Of a stretch of 64,000 nt of DNA, positions 49,171 to 62,958 are shown piece by piece. The stretch lies in NCBI RefSeq assembly GCF_014655295.1, contig NZ_BNBI01000001.1, forward strand, positions 1 to 64,000. The letters run 5' to 3'. Every line of letters starts with the position of its first letter. Positions within the stretch are counted from its first letter, which is position 1. This DNA comes from Streptomyces fumanus. Its GTDB lineage: Bacteria; Actinomycetota; Actinomycetes; Streptomycetales; Streptomycetaceae. The translations under genes and the position numbers were made by a program. The notes under the pieces were generated by a model, which saw nothing but the letters and a program-made list of their open reading frames with translations, searched no databases and was not told where the DNA came from.

Positions 49171-49270
49171 CGCCTGTTGACAGGCTGCCGGGTATCGAGG
49201 CGGTGCTCCGGTGCCGCAGCGCCGCCGCACCCGTGAGCGCGCCCCGACCCACCCCCGAAGGATGTGGCCC

Positions 49271-50302
49271 GTGACCTTCAAGGCTGAGTACATCTGGATC
49301 GACGGCACCGCGCCGACGGCCAAGCTCCGCTCCAAGACCAGGATCATCGCGGGCGCGCCCGCCGGTCTGGACGCGCTGCCGATCTGGGGCTTCGACGGGT
49401 CCTCCACCAACCAGGCCGAGGGCCACGCCTCGGACTGCGTGCTCAAGCCGGTCTTCACCTGCCCGGACCCGATCCGCGGCGGCGACGACGTGCTGGTGCT
49501 CTGCGAGGTCCTCACCACGGACATGGCCCCGCACCCGACCAACACCCGGGCCGCGCTGGCCGAGGTCGCCGAGCGGTTCGCCGCCCAGGAGCCGATCTTC
49601 GGCATCGAGCAGGAGTACACGTTCTTCAAGGACGGCTACCCGCTCGGCTTCCCCAAGGGCGGCTTCCCGGCCCCGCAGGGCGGCTACTACTGCGGTGTCG
49701 GCGCCGACGAGATCTTCGGCCGCGAGGTCGTCGAGGCGCACCTCGACAACTGCCTCGCCGCGGGCCTGGCCATCTCCGGCATCAACGCCGAGGTCATGCC
49801 CGGCCAGTGGGAGTTCCAGGTCGGCCCCGTGCCCCCGCTGGAGGTCGCCGACCACCTGTGGGTGGCCCGCTGGCTGCTCTACCGCACCGCCGAGGACCAC
49901 GACATCGCCGCCACCCTCGACCCCAAGCCGGTCAAGGGCGACTGGAACGGCGCGGGCGCGCACACCAACTTCTCCACCAAGGCGATGCGCGAGAGCTACG
50001 AGGCGATCATCACCGCCGCCGAGGCGCTCGGCGAGGGCTCCAAGCCGCTGGATCACGTGAAGAACTACGGCGCCGGCATCGACGACCGCCTCACCGGCCT
50101 GCACGAGACCGCCCCGTGGAACGAGTACTCCTACGGTGTCTCCGACCGCGGCGCCTCGGTCCGCATCCCCTGGCAGGTCGAGAAGGACGGCAAGGGCTAC
50201 ATCGAGGACCGCCGCCCCAACGCCAACGTCGACCCGTACGTGGTGACGCGGCTGCTCGTCGACACCTGCTGCACCGCGCTGGAGAAGGCCGGCCAGGTCT
50301 GA
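49271..50302 (+). CDS. glnII: glutamine synthetase type II (eukaryote-like)
   Basis: A second glutamine synthetase, 343 residues, of the GSII class found in Streptomyces, Rhizobium and eukaryotes. Motifs: IWIDGTAPTAKLRSKT, WGFDGSSTNQA, QEPIFGIEQEYTFF, GQWEFQVGP, GAGAHTNFSTKAMR and NVDPYVVTRLL. No adenylylation site is expected in this class. The GTG at 49271 has GAAGGATG 9 bases upstream. A GlnR box lies about 100-140 bases upstream. Confidence 0.96.
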   Translation: MTFKAEYIWIDGTAPTAKLRSKTRIIAGAPAGLDALPIWGFDGSSTNQAEGHASDCVLKPVFTCPDPIRGGDDVLVLCEVLTTDMAPHPTNTRAALAEVAERFAAQEPIFGIEQEYTFFKDGYPLGFPKGGFPAPQGGYYCGVGADEIFGREVVEAHLDNCLAAGLAISGINAEVMPGQWEFQVGPVPPLEVADHLWVARWLLYRTAEDHDIAATLDPKPVKGDWNGAGAHTNFSTKAMRESYEAIITAAEALGEGSKPLDHVKNYGAGIDDRLTGLHETAPWNEYSYGVSDRGASVRIPWQVEKDGKGYIEDRRPNANVDPYVVTRLLVDTCCTALEKAGQV

Positions 50303-55600: not shown

Positions 55601-57040
55601 ATGAAACGCATCCTGATCCAGGCCGGCAACAACCCGTTCGACGTGCCCTCGGTGGAAAGCACCCTGGTACGCAACAGCATTCGGGGCAACGTCGGAAACC
55701 TGATGTACACCAACGCGGCCTACAAGCACCTTTCGGTGCCGGGCCGCACCGAGATACAGGTGGACACCAAGCATTTCCGGGACCTCACCGTCGAGGACGC
55801 GGACCGGATCAACGACTCCTGTGACGTGTTCGTCATCCCGATGGCGAACGCCTTCAAGAAGAAGTTCGTACCGCACCTGAACATCCTGGCCGACGTGGTC
55901 GGCAGGCTGAAGGTGCCGGTGGTCGTCCTCGGCGTCGGCGCCCAGGCGACCCTGGACAACGACACCTCCTACCTCAGCCCCGTCAACGACGCCGTCAAGC
56001 GGTTCATCGGCGCGGTCCTGGACCGCTCCGCCTCCATCGGCGTCCGCGGCGAGTTCACCCAGCGCTACCTCAACGAGCTGGGCTTCCAGGGCGTCGACGT
56101 CATCGGCTGCCCCTCCACCTTCCTGCGCGGCCCCGGCTTCCGGATCGACCACACGGCGGGCCGGTCGCTGCCGGACAACCCCCGGATCGCCCTGTCCACC
56201 GCGCTGCGGCTGGCCAACTCCGGGCTCGCCTCCAAGCTGAACGCCGCCATCCTGCGGCAGTTCCCGGACCTGACGTACTTCGCGCAGGAGGGCCGGGACC
56301 TCCAGACGCTGTTCTGGGGCGACACCTCGATCGCGGCCGGGCAGAGCATGCCGATGCCCGACCTCGCCTCGCACCCGCTGATCCGCTCCGCCGACGTGTG
56401 CGTGCCGCTGGAGCCGCACAGTTGGATCGACACGCTGGCCGGCTACGACTTCGCGCTCGGCACCCGCATCCACGGCAACATCGCCGCGCTGGTGGCCGGC
56501 ACCCCGGCGTTCGTCTTCGCCCACGACTCCCGGACGCTGGAACTCTCCCGCTACCACCACATCCCGCACCGGCCGCTGACCGAGCTGCGCCCGGACACCG
56601 AGGTCGCCGACCTCTACGCGGAGACCGATTACACGGCATTCAACGAGCACTACGACGAGGGTTTCCGGCGCCTGCTCGACTTCATGACGAGGAACGGCCT
56701 GGAAAACACCTACGAGCACGGTGACGGCGGCGAGGCGTACGACAAGAAGGTCGCCGCCACCGAATTCACCGCGCCCTACCGGCGTCCGGAAACCGTGGAC
56801 CAGGACGACCTGCTGTTCCGCATCACCCTGCTCCGCGAGCAGAACAAGGACGTCGCCGCGCATGCCGCGCGGGTCGAGAAGAAGGCCGCCGCGCAGGCCG
56901 GCCGGATCAGGAAACTGGAAGCGGAACTCGCCGCGGTGAAGAAGGCCACGGAAAAGCGGCTGGCCGCCCTCGAGGCGCGGGCGGCGGACAACCGCCCCGG
57001 AAAGGCCGGCCGTCTGATGAAGCGGCTCTCCGCCAAGTAG
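55601..57040 (+). CDS. polysaccharide pyruvyl transferase family protein with C-terminal coiled coil
   Basis: A 479-residue protein of the PS_pyruv_trans family, which adds pyruvyl ketals from PEP to wall sugars or related polymers. Visible segments: RILIQAGNNP, DVFVIPMANAF, VVVLGVGAQAT, SIGVRGEFTQRYLN, and the substrate-loop LGTRIHGNIAALVAGTPAFVFAHDSRT, typical of the family. The last 70 residues are a charged coiled coil (RVEKKAAAQAGRIRKLEAELAAVKKA) not found in simple members. The ATG follows CAGAGGATCACATG. It faces a wall-polymer glycosyltransferase gene, pointing to cell-surface glycopolymer modification. Confidence 0.88.
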   Translation: MKRILIQAGNNPFDVPSVESTLVRNSIRGNVGNLMYTNAAYKHLSVPGRTEIQVDTKHFRDLTVEDADRINDSCDVFVIPMANAFKKKFVPHLNILADVVGRLKVPVVVLGVGAQATLDNDTSYLSPVNDAVKRFIGAVLDRSASIGVRGEFTQRYLNELGFQGVDVIGCPSTFLRGPGFRIDHTAGRSLPDNPRIALSTALRLANSGLASKLNAAILRQFPDLTYFAQEGRDLQTLFWGDTSIAAGQSMPMPDLASHPLIRSADVCVPLEPHSWIDTLAGYDFALGTRIHGNIAALVAGTPAFVFAHDSRTLELSRYHHIPHRPLTELRPDTEVADLYAETDYTAFNEHYDEGFRRLLDFMTRNGLENTYEHGDGGEAYDKKVAATEFTAPYRRPETVDQDDLLFRITLLREQNKDVAAHAARVEKKAAAQAGRIRKLEAELAAVKKATEKRLAALEARAADNRPGKAGRLMKRLSAK

Positions 57041-57060
57041 CGGACCGGCGGACGCGCTCC

Positions 57061-57097
57061 GGCCCCGCCGCACCGGTTCCTCCGGTGCGGCGGGGCC
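57061..57097. terminator. bidirectional terminator, 16-bp stem
   Basis: GGCCCCGCCGCACCGG (57061-57076) pairs exactly with 57082-57097 around TTCCT, between convergent genes. Confidence 0.88.
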
Positions 57098-57122
57098 GTT
57101 TCGCGCGGCGGGGCCGTCTGGC

Positions 57123-59276
57123 TCAGCCGGCCGGGTCCACCAGTCCGGCGAGGTCCGCCGGGTCGGTCTGCTCGGCCGGGTCGGTGCGGTCCGTCTGGTG
57201 CAGGGCCGAGACCTCGGCCGACTCGGCGATGTTGTCCGAGTCGGTGCGCTGCGAGGGGATGGTCAGCCGGGGCAGTCCCTCGCCGGCGTCCTCCGCCAGC
57301 TCCCGGGCGGCCCGCTCGGCCAGGGCGAGGGCCGCCGCGTTGAACCGCTCCATGGAGGTGGGGCGGTCCGGGCCGAGCACGTACTCCTTGAGCGTGCGGC
57401 GGTGCGGGGCCATCGGGTCGTGCCGCGGCTCGCGCACCGACCGCAGGATCTCCGGCAGCCGGGTGCAGTCGCGGTCCAGCAGATAGGCGCCGCCCGCGGT
57501 GGTGTACGCGGCCCGGAAGTCCTCGTCGGGCAGGTCGTGGGCGTTGGTCAGGACGTACGGCTTGAGGCTGGCGACGAAGTCGGCGACCACCGAGGAGACG
57601 TCGCTGATCAGCATGTCGGCCTGGTTGAAGCACTCGTACAGGCTGGGCAGGCGCTTGCGGATGATGTGGTGCCGGACGCCGCTGCGGCTCTCCCAGAAGA
57701 CGCGGTGCCACTCGTCGTTCAGGGCCTGCCACTCGGCCGCGCCGTCCCGGTCGGGGACGCGGGCGTCGCGGGTCTGCTGGGCGTCGTCGCCGTCGAGCCG
57801 GCCGGCCAGTTCGTCGAGCCGGGTCTGGATCTCCTTCAGCCGCAACTGGGCGGCGGCGATCGCGGCCTCGGCCGCGGCGCCCCCGTGCCGCTCGTTGTCG
57901 GTGCGGAGCAGTTCCCGGATCGCGGCGTCCGCCTCGGCGGCCTCGCGGGAGCGCTTGCCGGTGAGCGGGTGCGGCTTGTAGATGACCCGGACGTTCTCCG
58001 CGAGGAGCCGCTCGACCAGGGTCACGCCCATCGGGATCAGCGAGGTGTGGCAGTCGTCGTCGCTCCAGCCCTCCCAGGTCGGGGCGTACAGCACGACCGG
58101 CTCCGGGCCGGGCACGTGGTCGGCGTGCAGCCGGATCGGGGCGAGCTGCGGGCGGCCCACCTCGACGATGGCCTTGTCGCTGATGGCGTGCCGGACGCGC
58201 TGGTAGCGGTCGCGGCCGGCCCGGCCGGCCACCCAGATCTCGTCGTAGACCTTGCTGACGCGGTTGCTGCTGGCGAGCTTGTCGCTGTCGCCGTGGCCGA
58301 TGAAGACGTGCTTGGCCTCGGCGATGCGCAGCATGTGCACGTTCTTGCCGGCGTTGCCGGGGTAGAGGACCACCCGCACCTCGGACAGGTCCAGCTTGGC
58401 CACGTCGTCCGCCTTGGGCACGCAGACCACGGGTATCCAGGTGCGGCTCAGGAAGCGGAACGAGGGGCGCTCGCGCAGCACGATCAGCGGGCGCAGGTCG
58501 AGCCGCTCCAGCGTCTCGATCCACATGTTGACCTGGTACATGAAGTCCCGGGAGACCGCGGCGAAGCTGAAGTAGAGCGCCACCTGGGGCCGGTAGTCGG
58601 CCAGTTGCCCGTTGAGCGCGGCGATCACGTCGTCCGGCGTGGGCATCCGGCGCACCCGGCGCAACTGCCACAGCAGCGCCGCCAGCGCCAGCACCGACAG
58701 TCCGATGGTCAGCGCGAAACCGGCGTACGCCACCGTCCAGGTCCCGATGGCCAGCGCGGCCACCAGCGCCGCGTGGCCGGGCAGGTCGAGGTGGAGCAGC
58801 TTGCGCAGGAACCGCCGGTAGAGCAGGGCCGGCGGCTGCTTCGGGATGCCTGCGCCGCTCATGTCGAGGTTGCGCACGATGACCGGCAGGGTCCGCCGCG
58901 CCCGGATGATCCGGTGCACCGCCGAGTACAGCATCATGATCGCGAAGTGCACGGTGAACACGGCCAGCGCGGCGACCAGCAGCAGCTCCGGGGCGTTCAT
59001 CCGCTCGGCGAGGGCGAGCAGCATCGCCGTCCGGGCCGCGAACCGCATGGTGCGGGTCATCTGCAGCGAGGCGAGCCTGCGGATGAACCCGGGAGCCCGG
59101 GAGTGCAGCATCTCGTCCGTGAGATAACTCACGGCCGACGCCGCGGCGAAGCCCCAGAGCGACGGCAGCAGCGCGAACACGGGCAGTGCCGCGAAGCTGG
59201 CGCCGAACAGGAACACCAGGAGTAGGTCGGCTTTGCCACGCACGCGCAGGACAGAGCACAACCAACGGATCATCAT
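57123..59276 (-). CDS. CDP-glycerol glycerophosphotransferase-like (TagB/TagF family) membrane protein
   Basis: A 717-residue protein. The N-terminal 210 residues hold several membrane helices; about residues 215-660 form a TagB/F-type GT-B domain: GNAGKNVHM, FIGHGDSDKLASSN, VLYAPTWEGWSDDD, VIYKPHPLTGK and MLISDVSSVVADFVASLKP. A coiled-coil insert (EAAIAAAQLRLKEIQTRLDELAGRL) lies near residue 455. The C-terminal tail is acidic. The family builds teichoic acids; here the polymer is unknown. A start at 59273 is an alternative. It converges with the pyruvyl transferase. Confidence 0.87.
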   Translation of the reverse strand: MMIRWLCSVLRVRGKADLLLVFLFGASFAALPVFALLPSLWGFAAASAVSYLTDEMLHSRAPGFIRRLASLQMTRTMRFAARTAMLLALAERMNAPELLLVAALAVFTVHFAIMMLYSAVHRIIRARRTLPVIVRNLDMSGAGIPKQPPALLYRRFLRKLLHLDLPGHAALVAALAIGTWTVAYAGFALTIGLSVLALAALLWQLRRVRRMPTPDDVIAALNGQLADYRPQVALYFSFAAVSRDFMYQVNMWIETLERLDLRPLIVLRERPSFRFLSRTWIPVVCVPKADDVAKLDLSEVRVVLYPGNAGKNVHMLRIAEAKHVFIGHGDSDKLASSNRVSKVYDEIWVAGRAGRDRYQRVRHAISDKAIVEVGRPQLAPIRLHADHVPGPEPVVLYAPTWEGWSDDDCHTSLIPMGVTLVERLLAENVRVIYKPHPLTGKRSREAAEADAAIRELLRTDNERHGGAAAEAAIAAAQLRLKEIQTRLDELAGRLDGDDAQQTRDARVPDRDGAAEWQALNDEWHRVFWESRSGVRHHIIRKRLPSLYECFNQADMLISDVSSVVADFVASLKPYVLTNAHDLPDEDFRAAYTTAGGAYLLDRDCTRLPEILRSVREPRHDPMAPHRRTLKEYVLGPDRPTSMERFNAAALALAERAARELAEDAGEGLPRLTIPSQRTDSDNIAESAEVSALHQTDRTDPAEQTDPADLAGLVDPAG

Positions 59277-59459
59277 GGGCAGGATTCCTCTTCCAGTGAC
59301 GCATGCGGCCGCGCGGGAGCCGCGGTACGCCCGTTCGACTCGTAACCAGGGTAGATGGTTGTAGTACAGCGTCAGTACACGGGAAATTCACCTGGATTCG
59401 GTGGGTGACCGGTCCGTGCCGCGCGGTGACCAAGCGCCCGCCCGCTCGTTCTGCCAAGC

Positions 59460-61376
59460 GTGCAGTCACAGGATCTCGCCCCGCGCCCCGCAGCCCCCGC
59501 CGGCGACCCGGTCGTCGACGTCGAGGAGGCCGAGGCCGCGCTCGTCGAGCACTATCCGCGTCTGGTCCGGCTCGCCTACCTGGTGCTGCCGCCGGGCCTC
59601 GGCCGCAGCCGCCGGGTGCTGACCGCGCACGCCCTCACCCAGCGTGCGCTGCCCCGCAACCGCACCGCGGCCCCGGTGATCCCGGCCCAGTCCACCGGCC
59701 GTGACGGCGACCCCGGTTACGCCCTGGTCCGCCTCCGGGTGGTGCGTACGGCCCTGGAGGCGGGGCTGCCGCTGCGCCGCCCGGCGTGGCCCAAGCGGTC
59801 CCAACTGCCGCCGCTGCTGCCCCGGGTGTGGGGGCTGCGGCTGTTCCCGCGCTCGGGCGGCGCCGACGAACTGGCCCTGGACCAGGCGCTGTCCGCGCTG
59901 TCCGGCCCCGGCCGGGCGGCGTACGCGCTGCGCGGCCTGGAGCGGCTCCCCGACGGCGAGGTCCGGCGGGTGCTGGACGCCGCGGGCGCCGCCGACGCGG
60001 ACGCGGCGCTGCGCGAGGCCGGCACGGTGGCCGGGCCGTACCCGCTGCTCGACTCGCCCGAGTTCGACCCCTGCTCGCTCCAGGCCCGGCCGACCGACCT
60101 GCTGCGCCGCCGCCGGCACCTGCGGGCGGCGCTGGTCGCCGGGTGCGCGCTGGTGGTGTGCGGGGCGCTGCTCGGCCCGGACGGCGGCTGGGGCCCGGAC
60201 GGCGCCGCCGCCCCGCCCTACGCGCGCAACCCGGCGGCCGAGGCGGCCCTCGACCCGGGCAAGCTGGTCCGGGTCGCCCCCACCGCGTGGCGGACCTCGG
60301 CGCGCGCCGACTTCTCGGTGTGGCCGGCCCGCGGCGCGCTGACCGGCGACCGGGCGCTGCTCCGCCGCGCGCTGGCGGTCTGGGCCCGGCCCGGCGACCC
60401 GGTGGCCGTCTCCGCCACCCCGGGCACCCCGACCGGCGGCCCGGCCGGCCCGCCGCAACTGCTGTACGCGGGGACGGTCGACGCCGCCCGGGTGGTGCTC
60501 CTGTACGACGGGCTGCGGCTGGCCCGGTACGCCGAGCCGAAGGACGGCACGGCCGCCGCCGCCCTCGACCTCGCGCGCGCCGACGGCGCCCGGCGCTCCG
60601 AGGCGGGCGCGGTGGTGCTGGGCCGCTCCGACCGCACCGTCCGCTATCTGACCGCCCCCTGGGTGACCAAGGCGGCCGAGCGGGACCTGACCGAGCCCGG
60701 CGGCGGCGCGATGGAGCTGACGCTGGCCGACGGGGTGACCGCGCCGCTGGCCAGCCCGGTGCAGCGGTCCGGCGCCTGCACGTCCTGGAACGCGCTGGAG
60801 CTGACCGACGGCTCCACCACCCGCGTCCTGACCGACCTCGGCGAGCTGGTCCCGGCCCGGCTGACCACCGGCCGCCCCGGCTCGGCGGCGGAGGTGTCCG
60901 GCGCGAAGGCGCTGCGCGGGTGGGCGCCGTTCGCCTGCTCCCTGAACACGCTCCGCGGCGCGGGCGTCCGCTCGGTCAACGCCTGGGAGTTCGCCTCCCA
61001 GGCGCTGCCCGGCGCCGGGGGGACGGCCGCGTGGGTGTGCACCCGGGCGGAGACCTGGCGGGGCGGCGGCGCGAAGACGCTGGCCCAGTTCCACACGCCG
61101 GGCGGCACCTACGGGGCGGTCGCGGCCCGGGCCGAGAACGTACCGGCGTGCGGCGAGCGCGATCCGCACGTACTGGCCGGAGTGCTGTGGAAGTCACCGG
61201 AGGGCGACTGGTACCTGCTGGCCGCCGCCGACAAGGACACCGGCTCGATCCGGGCCACCGGCGGCATCGACGCCTCGGCGGACGGGCACACCCTGGCGGC
61301 CGAGACGAAGCAGGGCACGCGCGCCGAACTGAAGGCCACCCTGGACGACGGCCGCACGATCCGGGGCCTGCGCTGA
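59460..61376 (+). CDS. membrane-anchored protein with sigma-factor-like N-terminus
   Basis: A 638-residue protein. Residues about 20-190 resemble a degenerate ECF-type sigma factor (LVEHYPRLVRLAYLVL, then a region-4-like LSGPGRAAYALRGLERLPDGEVRRVL). A basic run RRRRHLRAALVAGCALVVCGALLG (about 216-239) is the single membrane helix; residues 245-638 are outside and include several cysteines. The GTG start at 59460 has no good ribosome site. It may couple outside sensing to transcription, or the sigma part may be only a protein-binding remnant; not resolved. Divergent from the TagB-like gene. Confidence 0.7.
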   Translation: MQSQDLAPRPAAPAGDPVVDVEEAEAALVEHYPRLVRLAYLVLPPGLGRSRRVLTAHALTQRALPRNRTAAPVIPAQSTGRDGDPGYALVRLRVVRTALEAGLPLRRPAWPKRSQLPPLLPRVWGLRLFPRSGGADELALDQALSALSGPGRAAYALRGLERLPDGEVRRVLDAAGAADADAALREAGTVAGPYPLLDSPEFDPCSLQARPTDLLRRRRHLRAALVAGCALVVCGALLGPDGGWGPDGAAAPPYARNPAAEAALDPGKLVRVAPTAWRTSARADFSVWPARGALTGDRALLRRALAVWARPGDPVAVSATPGTPTGGPAGPPQLLYAGTVDAARVVLLYDGLRLARYAEPKDGTAAAALDLARADGARRSEAGAVVLGRSDRTVRYLTAPWVTKAAERDLTEPGGGAMELTLADGVTAPLASPVQRSGACTSWNALELTDGSTTRVLTDLGELVPARLTTGRPGSAAEVSGAKALRGWAPFACSLNTLRGAGVRSVNAWEFASQALPGAGGTAAWVCTRAETWRGGGAKTLAQFHTPGGTYGAVAARAENVPACGERDPHVLAGVLWKSPEGDWYLLAAADKDTGSIRATGGIDASADGHTLAAETKQGTRAELKATLDDGRTIRGLR

Positions 61377-61485: not shown

Positions 61486-62079
61486 ATGGGCGCCGCGGGC
61501 AACGCCGAGCAGACGAAGGCGCGCATTCTGGAAGCGGCCCTGGAGGAGTTCTCCGCGTACGGCATCGCGGGCGCCCGGGTGGACCGCATCGCCCGCCGCG
61601 TCGGGTGCAACAAGAACCTCCTGTACGTCTACTTCGGCAACAAGGAGGCGCTGTTCACCACGGTCCTGGAGCGGAGCCTGGCGCGGGTGTACGAGGAGAT
61701 CGAGTTCACCCCCGACGACCTGCCGGGGTACGCCACCGCCGTCTTCGACTTCGCGATGAGCCACCCGGACCTGATGCGTCTGATGCTGTGGTCGAGCCTG
61801 GAACAGGACCCCGGCCGGGCCACGGCGCGGGCCGATGCCCGTACGGGCAAGGTCCGCGCGCTGTCGTCCGGAACGGCCGGCGAGGCCGACGGCTCCGGGT
61901 TCCGGGGTGAGTTCCTGCTGACCTCGATCATGGCCCTGGCGACGGCCTGGTCTTCGCTCAGCCCGTTCGGCCCCACGCTCGACCCGGACGCGGCCCGGGA
62001 CATGGACCGGTTGCGCGAGGACGTGGGCAGGGCGGTGGCCCGCCTGGCGGCACCGGAGCCGGACCGAGAGGACCGCTAG
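61486..62079 (+). CDS. TetR-family regulator
   Basis: A 197-residue regulator: an N-terminal TetR helix-turn-helix (KARILEAALEEFSAYGIAGARVDRIARRVGCNKNLLYVYFGNKEAL), then a C-terminal ligand-binding helical domain. GAGGAGGAGC is 9 bases upstream of the ATG. A perfect palindrome lies in its promoter. It may act on itself and neighbours; the ligand is unknown. Confidence 0.92.
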   Translation: MGAAGNAEQTKARILEAALEEFSAYGIAGARVDRIARRVGCNKNLLYVYFGNKEALFTTVLERSLARVYEEIEFTPDDLPGYATAVFDFAMSHPDLMRLMLWSSLEQDPGRATARADARTGKVRALSSGTAGEADGSGFRGEFLLTSIMALATAWSSLSPFGPTLDPDAARDMDRLREDVGRAVARLAAPEPDREDR

Positions 62080-62118
62080 GGCCGGCCGGGACCGCTCTTC
62101 GCGGCGCGGGCGCGGTGT

Positions 62119-62958
62119 TCAGGCGGCCTGGCGGTCGGTGGAGAGCGCGGTCGCCTTGCCGTTCTCCAGCTCGGCGAGGCGGGCGGTGAGGGCCTGGTTC
62201 ATGAAGCGGTAGGAGTCGCTGCCCAGCGCCAGCCGGCGCGGCGCCTCGGGCCGGTCCACCGTGGCGATCATCGCGGCGACCATCTTGTCCACGTCCCCGA
62301 CGGAGGGCAGGGACGGGTCCTTGATGCGGCGGACCATGGCGGCCGGCGTGCCGTCGTAGGCGGCCAGGGGCTCGGCGACCCGGGCGCCGCCCGTGCGGAA
62401 ACCGGTGCCGGCGCTGCCGGGCTCGATGATGGTGACGCCGATGCCGAACGGGGCCAGGTCCAGCGCCGTGGCCTCCATGAAGCCCTCGATGCCCCACTTG
62501 CCGGCGCTGTAGACCGAGGCGCCGGGGTTGGTGGCCTGGCCGCCGTAGGTGGAGAGCTGGAGGATGCGTCCGCCGCCCTGGGCCCTCAGGTGCGGGACGG
62601 CGGCCCGCACCACGCGGATGGACCCGAGGAGGTTGGTGTCGATCTGGTGGACGATCTGCTCGTCGGTCAGTTCCTCGACGGCGCCGAAGAGGCCGTAACC
62701 GGCGTTGTTGACGACGACGTCGATGCGGCCCGCCGCCCCGAAGGCCGCGTCGACCACGGCTGTGATGGCCCCCGCGCCGTCGGTCAGATCGAGGCGGTGC
62801 ACGGACAGGCGGTCACCGTGGGCCTTCCGGAGCTCCCGCACGGAATCCAGGTCGCGCACGGTGCCGACGACCCGGTTCCCGTCCGCGAGCAGCATCTCGG
62901 CCATACGGCGGCCGAAGCCGCTGCTGATGCCGGTGATGAACCAGGTGCGCTGGGGCAT
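62119..62958 (-). CDS. short-chain dehydrogenase/reductase
   Basis: A classical SDR of 279 residues: cofactor motif TGISSGFGRRMAE, NNAGYG, catalytic Ser and Tyr-x3-Lys in LSTYGG...YSAGKWGIEGF, and a C-terminal tail. Substrate unknown. The ATG at 62958 has GGAAGGA 7 bases upstream. It is divergent from a TetR gene with shared operators, so it is probably induced by the ligand of that regulator. Confidence 0.93.
   Translation of the reverse strand: MPQRTWFITGISSGFGRRMAEMLLADGNRVVGTVRDLDSVRELRKAHGDRLSVHRLDLTDGAGAITAVVDAAFGAAGRIDVVVNNAGYGLFGAVEELTDEQIVHQIDTNLLGSIRVVRAAVPHLRAQGGGRILQLSTYGGQATNPGASVYSAGKWGIEGFMEATALDLAPFGIGVTIIEPGSAGTGFRTGGARVAEPLAAYDGTPAAMVRRIKDPSLPSVGDVDKMVAAMIATVDRPEAPRRLALGSDSYRFMNQALTARLAELENGKATALSTDRQAA

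Follow-up and report, generated by a model that had tools for sequence, protein, structure and literature searches.

A conserved one-chain protein of Streptomyces carries a sigma-shaped cytoplasmic domain and may be a membrane-anchored sigma mimic

What is the role of a sigma-like domain that is tethered, in a single chain, to a large domain outside the cell? The question is raised by a gene in the window, the 64,000-nucleotide stretch of Streptomyces fumanus contig NZ_BNBI01000001.1 analysed here, whose product was taken in a preliminary description to be a worn ECF sigma factor followed by one membrane helix and an outside domain. The open reading frame is a conserved gene rather than a chance reading frame, since 188 of 199 same-genus genomes contain relatives (at E 0.001; mostly full length among the matches listed), the GTG start is aligned with that of the window in all 80 of the loci L031-L110 (in which the start codon closest to the expected place was chosen), and the median dN/dS of the N-terminal domain is 0.29. 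A genome search finds it as one copy in 8.15 Mb, and its closest named relatives are from Streptomyces, the best at 79-80% identity. The gene and its parts are as follows.

59425..59462, + strand: conserved upstream block GGTGACC...CGTTCTGC, ending at the start codon (81 Streptomyces loci)
59460..61376, + strand: whole gene, 638 amino acids, GTG start (single open reading frame)
59517..59762, + strand: sigma2-like half, residues 20-101, equivalent of regions 2.1-2.4 (AlphaFold2 helices, VIA-align, global hhalign)
59625..59651, + strand: re-written region 2.2 motif A56-H57-A58-L59-T60-Q61-R62-A63-L64, with no Asp at residue 58
59820..59849, + strand: conserved sigma2-sigma4 linker PRVWGLRLFP, residues 121-130 (entropy in the 77-row alignment)
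59862..60020, + strand: sigma4-like half, residues 135-187 (hhalign of residues 138-172, AlphaFold2 helices, net charge)
60045..60116, + strand: juxtamembrane segment, residues 196-219, with conserved EFDPC..QARPTDL and RRRR (family alignments)
60120..60173, + strand: single membrane helix, about residues 221-238, model helix 211-235 (sequence, AlphaFold2)
60174..61373, + strand: outside domain, residues 239-638, mostly beta (AlphaFold2)
60312..60506, + strand: membrane-proximal outside module, residues 285-349 (hhalign to split and other fused relatives)

The family extends beyond the genus. In a sample of the family, 108 of 150 genomes, spread over 13 of 17 genera, have a match at E 0.001, and a profile of the outside domain finds 109 of 119 genomes (two of five genera) in an order sample, 32 of 246 genomes (24 of them of the same genus; six of 95 genera) in a class sample, and 33 of 150 genomes (15 of 68 genera) in one other family, f17. 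Of 32 distinct f17 genes that were inspected, 31 have the N-terminal domain in the same reading frame (with E 1.8e-6 to 3e-26 for that domain), the exception being L232, in which it sits in another frame; the L264 stretch has a second, short match without an N-terminal domain in its reading frame. Two related plasmid copies are annotated as hypothetical, and searches of open-licence papers returned no description of the family. Three alignment sets are used below: alignments A2-A4, of 41 rows; a family set of 69 of the 178 family proteins, from which L142, L157, L160, L174 and most near-identical proteins were omitted; and a 77-row set made up of A2 with six f3 and 30 f17 rows, omitting the duplicates L250 and L267, also L271, and the frame-broken L232.

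The chain runs from a cytoplasmic domain (residues about 20-190) through a single membrane helix to about 400 outside residues, in the AlphaFold2 model much as the preliminary description had it with one helix and ~390 residues outside; from the RRRR stretch at the start of the helix we infer that it would be oriented inside-to-outside. Only one cysteine, C205, is found in residues 1-215, by the membrane on the predicted cytoplasmic side, and Asp203-Pro-Cys205 (60066-60077, residues 203-206) is near-invariant in Streptomycetaceae rows; many f17 relatives have DPT in place of DPC, and others have neither. The outside domain has four conserved cysteines (Cys 440, 493, 527 and 564), and its membrane-proximal module carries the motif WPARG...D..L..RAL..W...LLYAG...VVLL. 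A profile of the domain has no match in the PDB up to E 1. An Ig/FN3-like fold for residues 567-638 (Z up to 5.7, 70 aligned, 2.4 A) was rejected as too weak and the arrangement as too common.

Evidence for a sigma domain at the N-terminus comes from the family rather than from the single protein. Of the two sigma regions for which the preliminary description proposed an HMM search of residues 1-200, region 4 is recovered in relatives, which match Sigma70_r4_2, one of them above the cut-off, but not in the window protein, which has no match to Pfam (E 10), NCBIfam or PDB sequences. When E values up to 10 are allowed, Sigma70_r4_2 is hit by 15 of 41 relatives and PhyR_sigma-like by eight; with the limit at E 1, nine of the 41 match TIGR02983, the SigE family (best 2.3e-4). 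Among 20 members scanned singly, L176 alone passes the Sigma70_r4_2 cut-off (26.9 bits against 25.7), and the matches cover only positions 2-38 of the 54 of the profile, which presumably leaves out the last part of the DNA-reading helix. The f17 relative L264 matches TIGR02983 over residues 2-122 at E 1.2e-6, with 28.5 bits against a cut-off of 141.55.

The 69-row N-domain profile aligned by hhalign with 17 ECF sigma factors of the same genome places residues 138-172 on region 4 (P 3.5e-5), whereas the controls against this set (reversed, ten shuffled, and the outside domain) give P no better than 0.33; with the remaining 13 sigma factors of the genome P is only 0.022. With 77 rows and two split-pair sigmas (see below) added to the ECF set the match strengthens to P 4.2e-6, the best of 50 column shuffles being 0.15. 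The sigma2 half alone is not significant against the ECF profile (P 0.075), and global hhalign places AHALTQ on the AEDLTQ of region 2.2. A search of the PDB with the N-domain profile (E up to 1) returns the PhyR entry 3t0y first, at E 0.0014, and then SigE at 0.028; its ten rows include six PhyR-type response regulators, with 4g97, which we take to be PhyR, and three SigE.

Predicted structures agree. The full-length AlphaFold2 model (81 sequences, mean pLDDT 76.5, pTM 0.58) has four and then four helices in residues 20-190 and a beta-rich remainder after the membrane helix, with short strands at 128-130 and 207-209; residues 1-209 modelled alone give pLDDT 74.7 and pTM 0.75, and the helices in both models are 21-30, 32-42, 49-61 and 85-101, then 135-145, 149-159, 165-175 and 180-187. 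The sigma2-sigma4 fold is thus present, in order, in the predicted models. For the N-domain model, VIA-align lists 26 of 69 aligned chains at Z 2 or more, and all 19 PDB entries listed are sigma factors or PhyR. The best are SigG1 7qh5 (Z 9.4, 138 aligned, 4.1 A), PhyR 4qic (Z 9.3, 116 aligned, 3.6 A) and SigW 5wuq (Z 9.2, 123 aligned, 3.8 A), with RpoE (Z 8.8), CnrH (Z 7.7) and SigJ (Z 7.6) among the others, although the tool itself notes that for helical domains a Z under about 13 can reflect a common arrangement. Of these 19 rows, eleven reach at least Z 6, none of them bound to polymerase, and the other eight do not exceed Z 3.6; sigmas in complex with polymerase give poor superpositions (Z 3.1-3.6, about 29 A). 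The whole model finds RpoE 5uxx (Z 8.8, 139 aligned, 3.8 A), SigG1 7qh5 (Z 8.5, 133 aligned, 3.9 A) and two PhyR chains (Z 6.9 and 6.8) ahead of a row at Z 5.7. Foldseek returns nothing at E < 0.001 for the whole model, its rows being mainly beta-propeller and beta-sandwich chains, and only E above 1 for the N-domain model, with eight of 14 rows sigma or PhyR. With family profile and model both matching sigma factors, and with the structural matches listed for the N-domain model confined to sigma factors and PhyR, a sigma fold and ECF ancestry of the N-terminal domain are well supported, and the sigma-like fold described for the first ~190 residues of one tethered chain holds up in models, family profiles and the matches of relatives alike.

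Where did such a chain come from? In three genomes of one genus (G488, G633, G515) and one of another family (G765), the gene that immediately follows an intact ECF gene, and overlaps or abuts it, encodes a membrane protein with a related membrane-proximal outside module. The ECF genes of these split pairs match the ECF profile at E 4.8e-32 to 4.4e-54, and the two of their sigmas that were scanned against NCBIfam reach 154 and 173 bits with TIGR02983 (cut-off 141.55). The outside modules align by hhalign (A6 against A3) with P 3.7e-5 and 38% identity, the best of 30 shuffles being 0.17; the homology covers about 58 columns, and the split pairs come from two families, with three of the four genomes in one genus. 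Further one-chain forms occur in G416, G636 and G767. The N-terminal part of G416 matches the ECF profile with a whole-sequence E of 1.7e-6 (single stretches 0.004-0.006) and TIGR02983 weakly (7.7e-4); G636 and G767 have no match to sigma models, and their N-terminal parts are less surely sigma-like. The outside module also occurs in G540, at two places in G420, and in G765 C4, where the stretch examined yielded no ECF gene.

In other actinobacterial families L282, L285 and L288 are single chains with a degenerate or unrecognisable sigma-like N-terminal part and a related outside module, and L235, L236, L292 and L293 are membrane proteins with a WPARG-type outside module for which the stretch examined shows no ECF gene. 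Six weak A6 matches (G570, G640, G509, G516, G538 and G488 C219), mainly to the inside and membrane part (positions 1-95), were rejected as split or fused forms; three of them adjoin an ECF gene, and that in G516 shares its reading frame with an ECF region 2 match.

The simplest history for the split pairs and fused forms is that an ECF sigma was fused to its membrane partner, and comparison of the sequences gives good support to the window protein deriving from an ECF sigma, probably a SigE-family one, that was joined to the membrane protein of the adjacent gene. SigE-family ECFs resemble the window protein in that the split relatives pair such a sigma with an adjacent membrane partner bearing a related outside module; they differ in that the window protein is one chain and matches no TIGR02983 model, the 28.5 of 141.55 bits of L264 being well short of it. 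As an account of ancestry, then, the 'one-piece sensor' of the preliminary description fits the split ECF/membrane pairs, but a working one-piece sigma factor is not the best reading of the present protein.

The residues that would touch polymerase and promoter are changed throughout the family. In region 2.2 of ECF sigma factors the acidic contact to the beta-prime clamp is the Asp of DxxQ, within a typical A-E-D-x-x-Q-E. This column holds Asp in 18 of 19 control ECFs (the exception, L203, has Thr in this column, preceded by an Asp) and in none of 77 relatives, which have Arg (34), Ala (30) or other residues (13); Arg occupies it in 29 of 30 f17 relatives. Residues 165-190, the equivalent of the promoter helix-turn-helix, have a mean net charge of -2.3 in relatives (10th-90th percentile -5 to 0), and the 19 ECFs average +3.1. 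The nearest sigmas stand out less from the relatives, the two split-pair SigE-family sigmas being at 0 and +1, and three further control ECFs are at 0 or below (four of the 19 in all). The sigma2-polymerase contact is described as electrostatic and conserved (PMC6411747). Loss of the Asp and the change of charge would lower polymerase binding, and some of it may remain. Judged from these alignments, the N-terminal domain is probably not a sigma factor in the usual sense any more.

It is nevertheless not decaying, and 'worn' is right for the altered contacts but not for a domain that is under purifying selection and re-written. Median dN/dS is 0.29 inside and 0.39 outside, and lower inside in 88% of 3240 pairs. 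In the 77-row alignment the linker PRVWGLRLFP has the lowest mean entropy (1.23) of nine stretches, and together with the region 2.1 and 2.2 helices it is the least variable. Constraint on the linker and on sigma2.1/2.2 suggests a binding surface. In ECF sigma factors, regions 2.1 and 2.2 bind the beta-prime clamp and are also met by helix 4 of the anti-sigma factor (PMC7406223).

A self-directed promoter was sought, and only the conserved block abutting the start codon was found, with GGTGACC in 69 and CGTTCTGC in 55 of 81 Streptomyces loci. An inverted repeat GTTC-N4-GAAC stands directly before the GTG in 49 of the 81 and is not intact in the window, and none of the 81 has a Shine-Dalgarno-like tetramer (GGAG, GAGG, AGGA or AAGG, 4-16 nt upstream); the block is possibly a leaderless start or an operator. 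In 80 Streptomyces loci the neighbours are what we take to be a lipoprotein-like gene (78) and a secreted-protein gene (77) upstream and a TetR-like gene (77) downstream; the last is kept in 16 of 20 more divergent Streptomyces loci, and none of the three in 20 loci of other genera or paralogous copies, among which the most shared neighbour ORF occurs in four. Comparison of the neighbour ORFs of 40 loci, and inspection of 20 loci by eye, showed no constant partner gene within about 4 kb. Because no constant neighbour was found, any partner would in most cases have to act in trans.

Two observations on gene order are specific to single loci. Between the conserved neighbours, the window has extra genes at 55601-59276 and 61486-62958 without match at E 1e-8 in the loci of 120 relatives, presumably pyruvyl-transferase-like and CDP-glycerol-transferase-like genes upstream and TetR and short-chain dehydrogenase genes downstream. 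In one other genus (L172) the gene adjoins what we take to be a glnII-like gene, within about 2 kb of a presumed glnE-like gene, and the window gene lies about 9 kb from its own presumed glnII-like gene (49211-50302).

The fold, chain layout, conservation, changed sigma contacts and homologous split pairs are observed by computation, and the reading we prefer for them, to which we would give an even chance, is of a membrane-anchored sigma mimic, in which an ECF sigma fused to its membrane partner now serves as a sigma-mimicking output domain with PhyR-like logic. The topology, signal, partner and direction of switching that we infer would run as follows. The outside domain would sense an envelope or extracellular cue, and the signal would cross the single membrane helix and the conserved juxtamembrane segment EFDPC-QARPTDL-RRRR to the sigma-shaped cytoplasmic domain. 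That domain, having probably lost docking on RNA polymerase or promoter DNA, would expose or hide its re-written region 2.1/2.2 face. The most likely outcome would be partner switching, in which the domain sequesters either an anti-sigma factor or the remnant of one in its own juxtamembrane segment and would thereby free a separate true sigma factor, as in PhyR, here driven directly by an outside sensor.

The likeness to PhyR lies in an ECF fold with altered polymerase and promoter contacts, and PhyR is both the best PDB profile match (3t0y) and among the closest structures (4qic, Z 9.3). PhyR is an anti-anti-sigma factor of the alphaproteobacterial general stress response. Its sigma-like domain is described as built like an ECF, the promoter and RNAP regions being degenerate, and as titrating NepR (PMC8103513). 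PhyR differs in having a receiver domain switched by phosphorylation, where the window protein has a membrane helix and a beta outside domain, and no Pfam family at all is found in that protein at E 10. SigG1 (ECF56) and SigJ (ECF41), though among the closest folds (Z 9.4 and 7.6), carry an extension described as SnoaL-like (PMC8999054) in place of the membrane helix and outside domain.

That the sigma fold is kept just as a stable cytoplasmic module, for dimerisation or as a scaffold or plug and with no link to sigma regulation, while the outside domain does the main envelope work, seems to us rather unlikely. A conserved outside domain with four cysteines would suit it, as would the outside module without a detected ECF gene in G540, twice in G420 and in G765 C4, and the finding of no neighbour common to more than four of 20 loci outside the main Streptomyces group; against it, the inside domain is under tighter constraint than the outside, and the least variable parts are the linker and the sigma2.1/2.2 helices.

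Rather unlikely too, and marginally more so in our view, is a working one-piece ECF sigma that is held at the membrane and freed by proteolysis on an outside trigger. It has precedents, and the preliminary remark that one chain departs from the usual sigma/anti-sigma pairs, true in itself, has to be set beside them: ECF48, ECF52 (SCO4117), ECF53 and IutY (ECF243) are likewise single chains with the same order of sigma domain, membrane helix and outside extension (PMC8999054, PMC5826349), and proteolytic release is proposed for ECF52 and shown for IutY in the accounts given there. The N-domain model keeps the sigma2-sigma4 order and fold, L176 lies above the Sigma70_r4_2 cut-off, and cleavage could take place in the conserved juxtamembrane segment. 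These precedents, however, are described as sigma factors (PMC8999054), whereas the window family has altered sigma contacts; the region 2.2 Asp is missing in 77 of 77 relatives, the sigma4 helices are negative on average, and the window protein passes no sigma model. ECF48, ECF52 and ECF53 also carry a zinc-finger anti-sigma domain (PMC8999054), which the window protein does not; with C205 the one cysteine in its first 215 residues, such a motif is impossible there. A working one-piece sigma is not the best reading because the residues contacting polymerase and promoter DNA are altered family-wide.

An unrelated helical domain, sigma-like by chance, is highly improbable, for although the window sequence has no family match, Foldseek gives E above 1 for the N-domain and the sigma2 half by itself is not significant by profile, the collinear match holds against shuffle and reversal controls, relatives match TIGR02983 and Sigma70_r4_2 directly, split pairs have an intact ECF sigma, and PhyR and SigE are the top PDB profile matches.

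Returning to the membrane-anchored sigma mimic, we put forward tentatively, as possible rather than probable, that the protein belongs to a pseudo-sigma receptor family, in which ECFs fused to a membrane partner have lost transcription and become transmembrane anti-anti-sigma receptors, working without kinase or proteolysis. If so, an outside signal would capture or release an anti-sigma factor at the membrane, and Streptomyces would possess a core signalling family that has no name yet and is resembled by fused, degenerate proteins in other actinobacterial families (G416 and, less surely, G636 and G767). Sigma mimicry is known to us from PhyR response regulators, and the mimic reading, if true, would extend it to membrane receptors and would give a function to a gene that occurs in 188 of the 199 congeneric genomes searched and has no match in Pfam or NCBIfam. 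A regulator pair would have been turned into a single receptor whose former effector is now a pseudo-effector, comparable to the pseudokinases, and if the partner is an anti-sigma factor, an outside cue would be tied directly to sigma control in these antibiotic producers.
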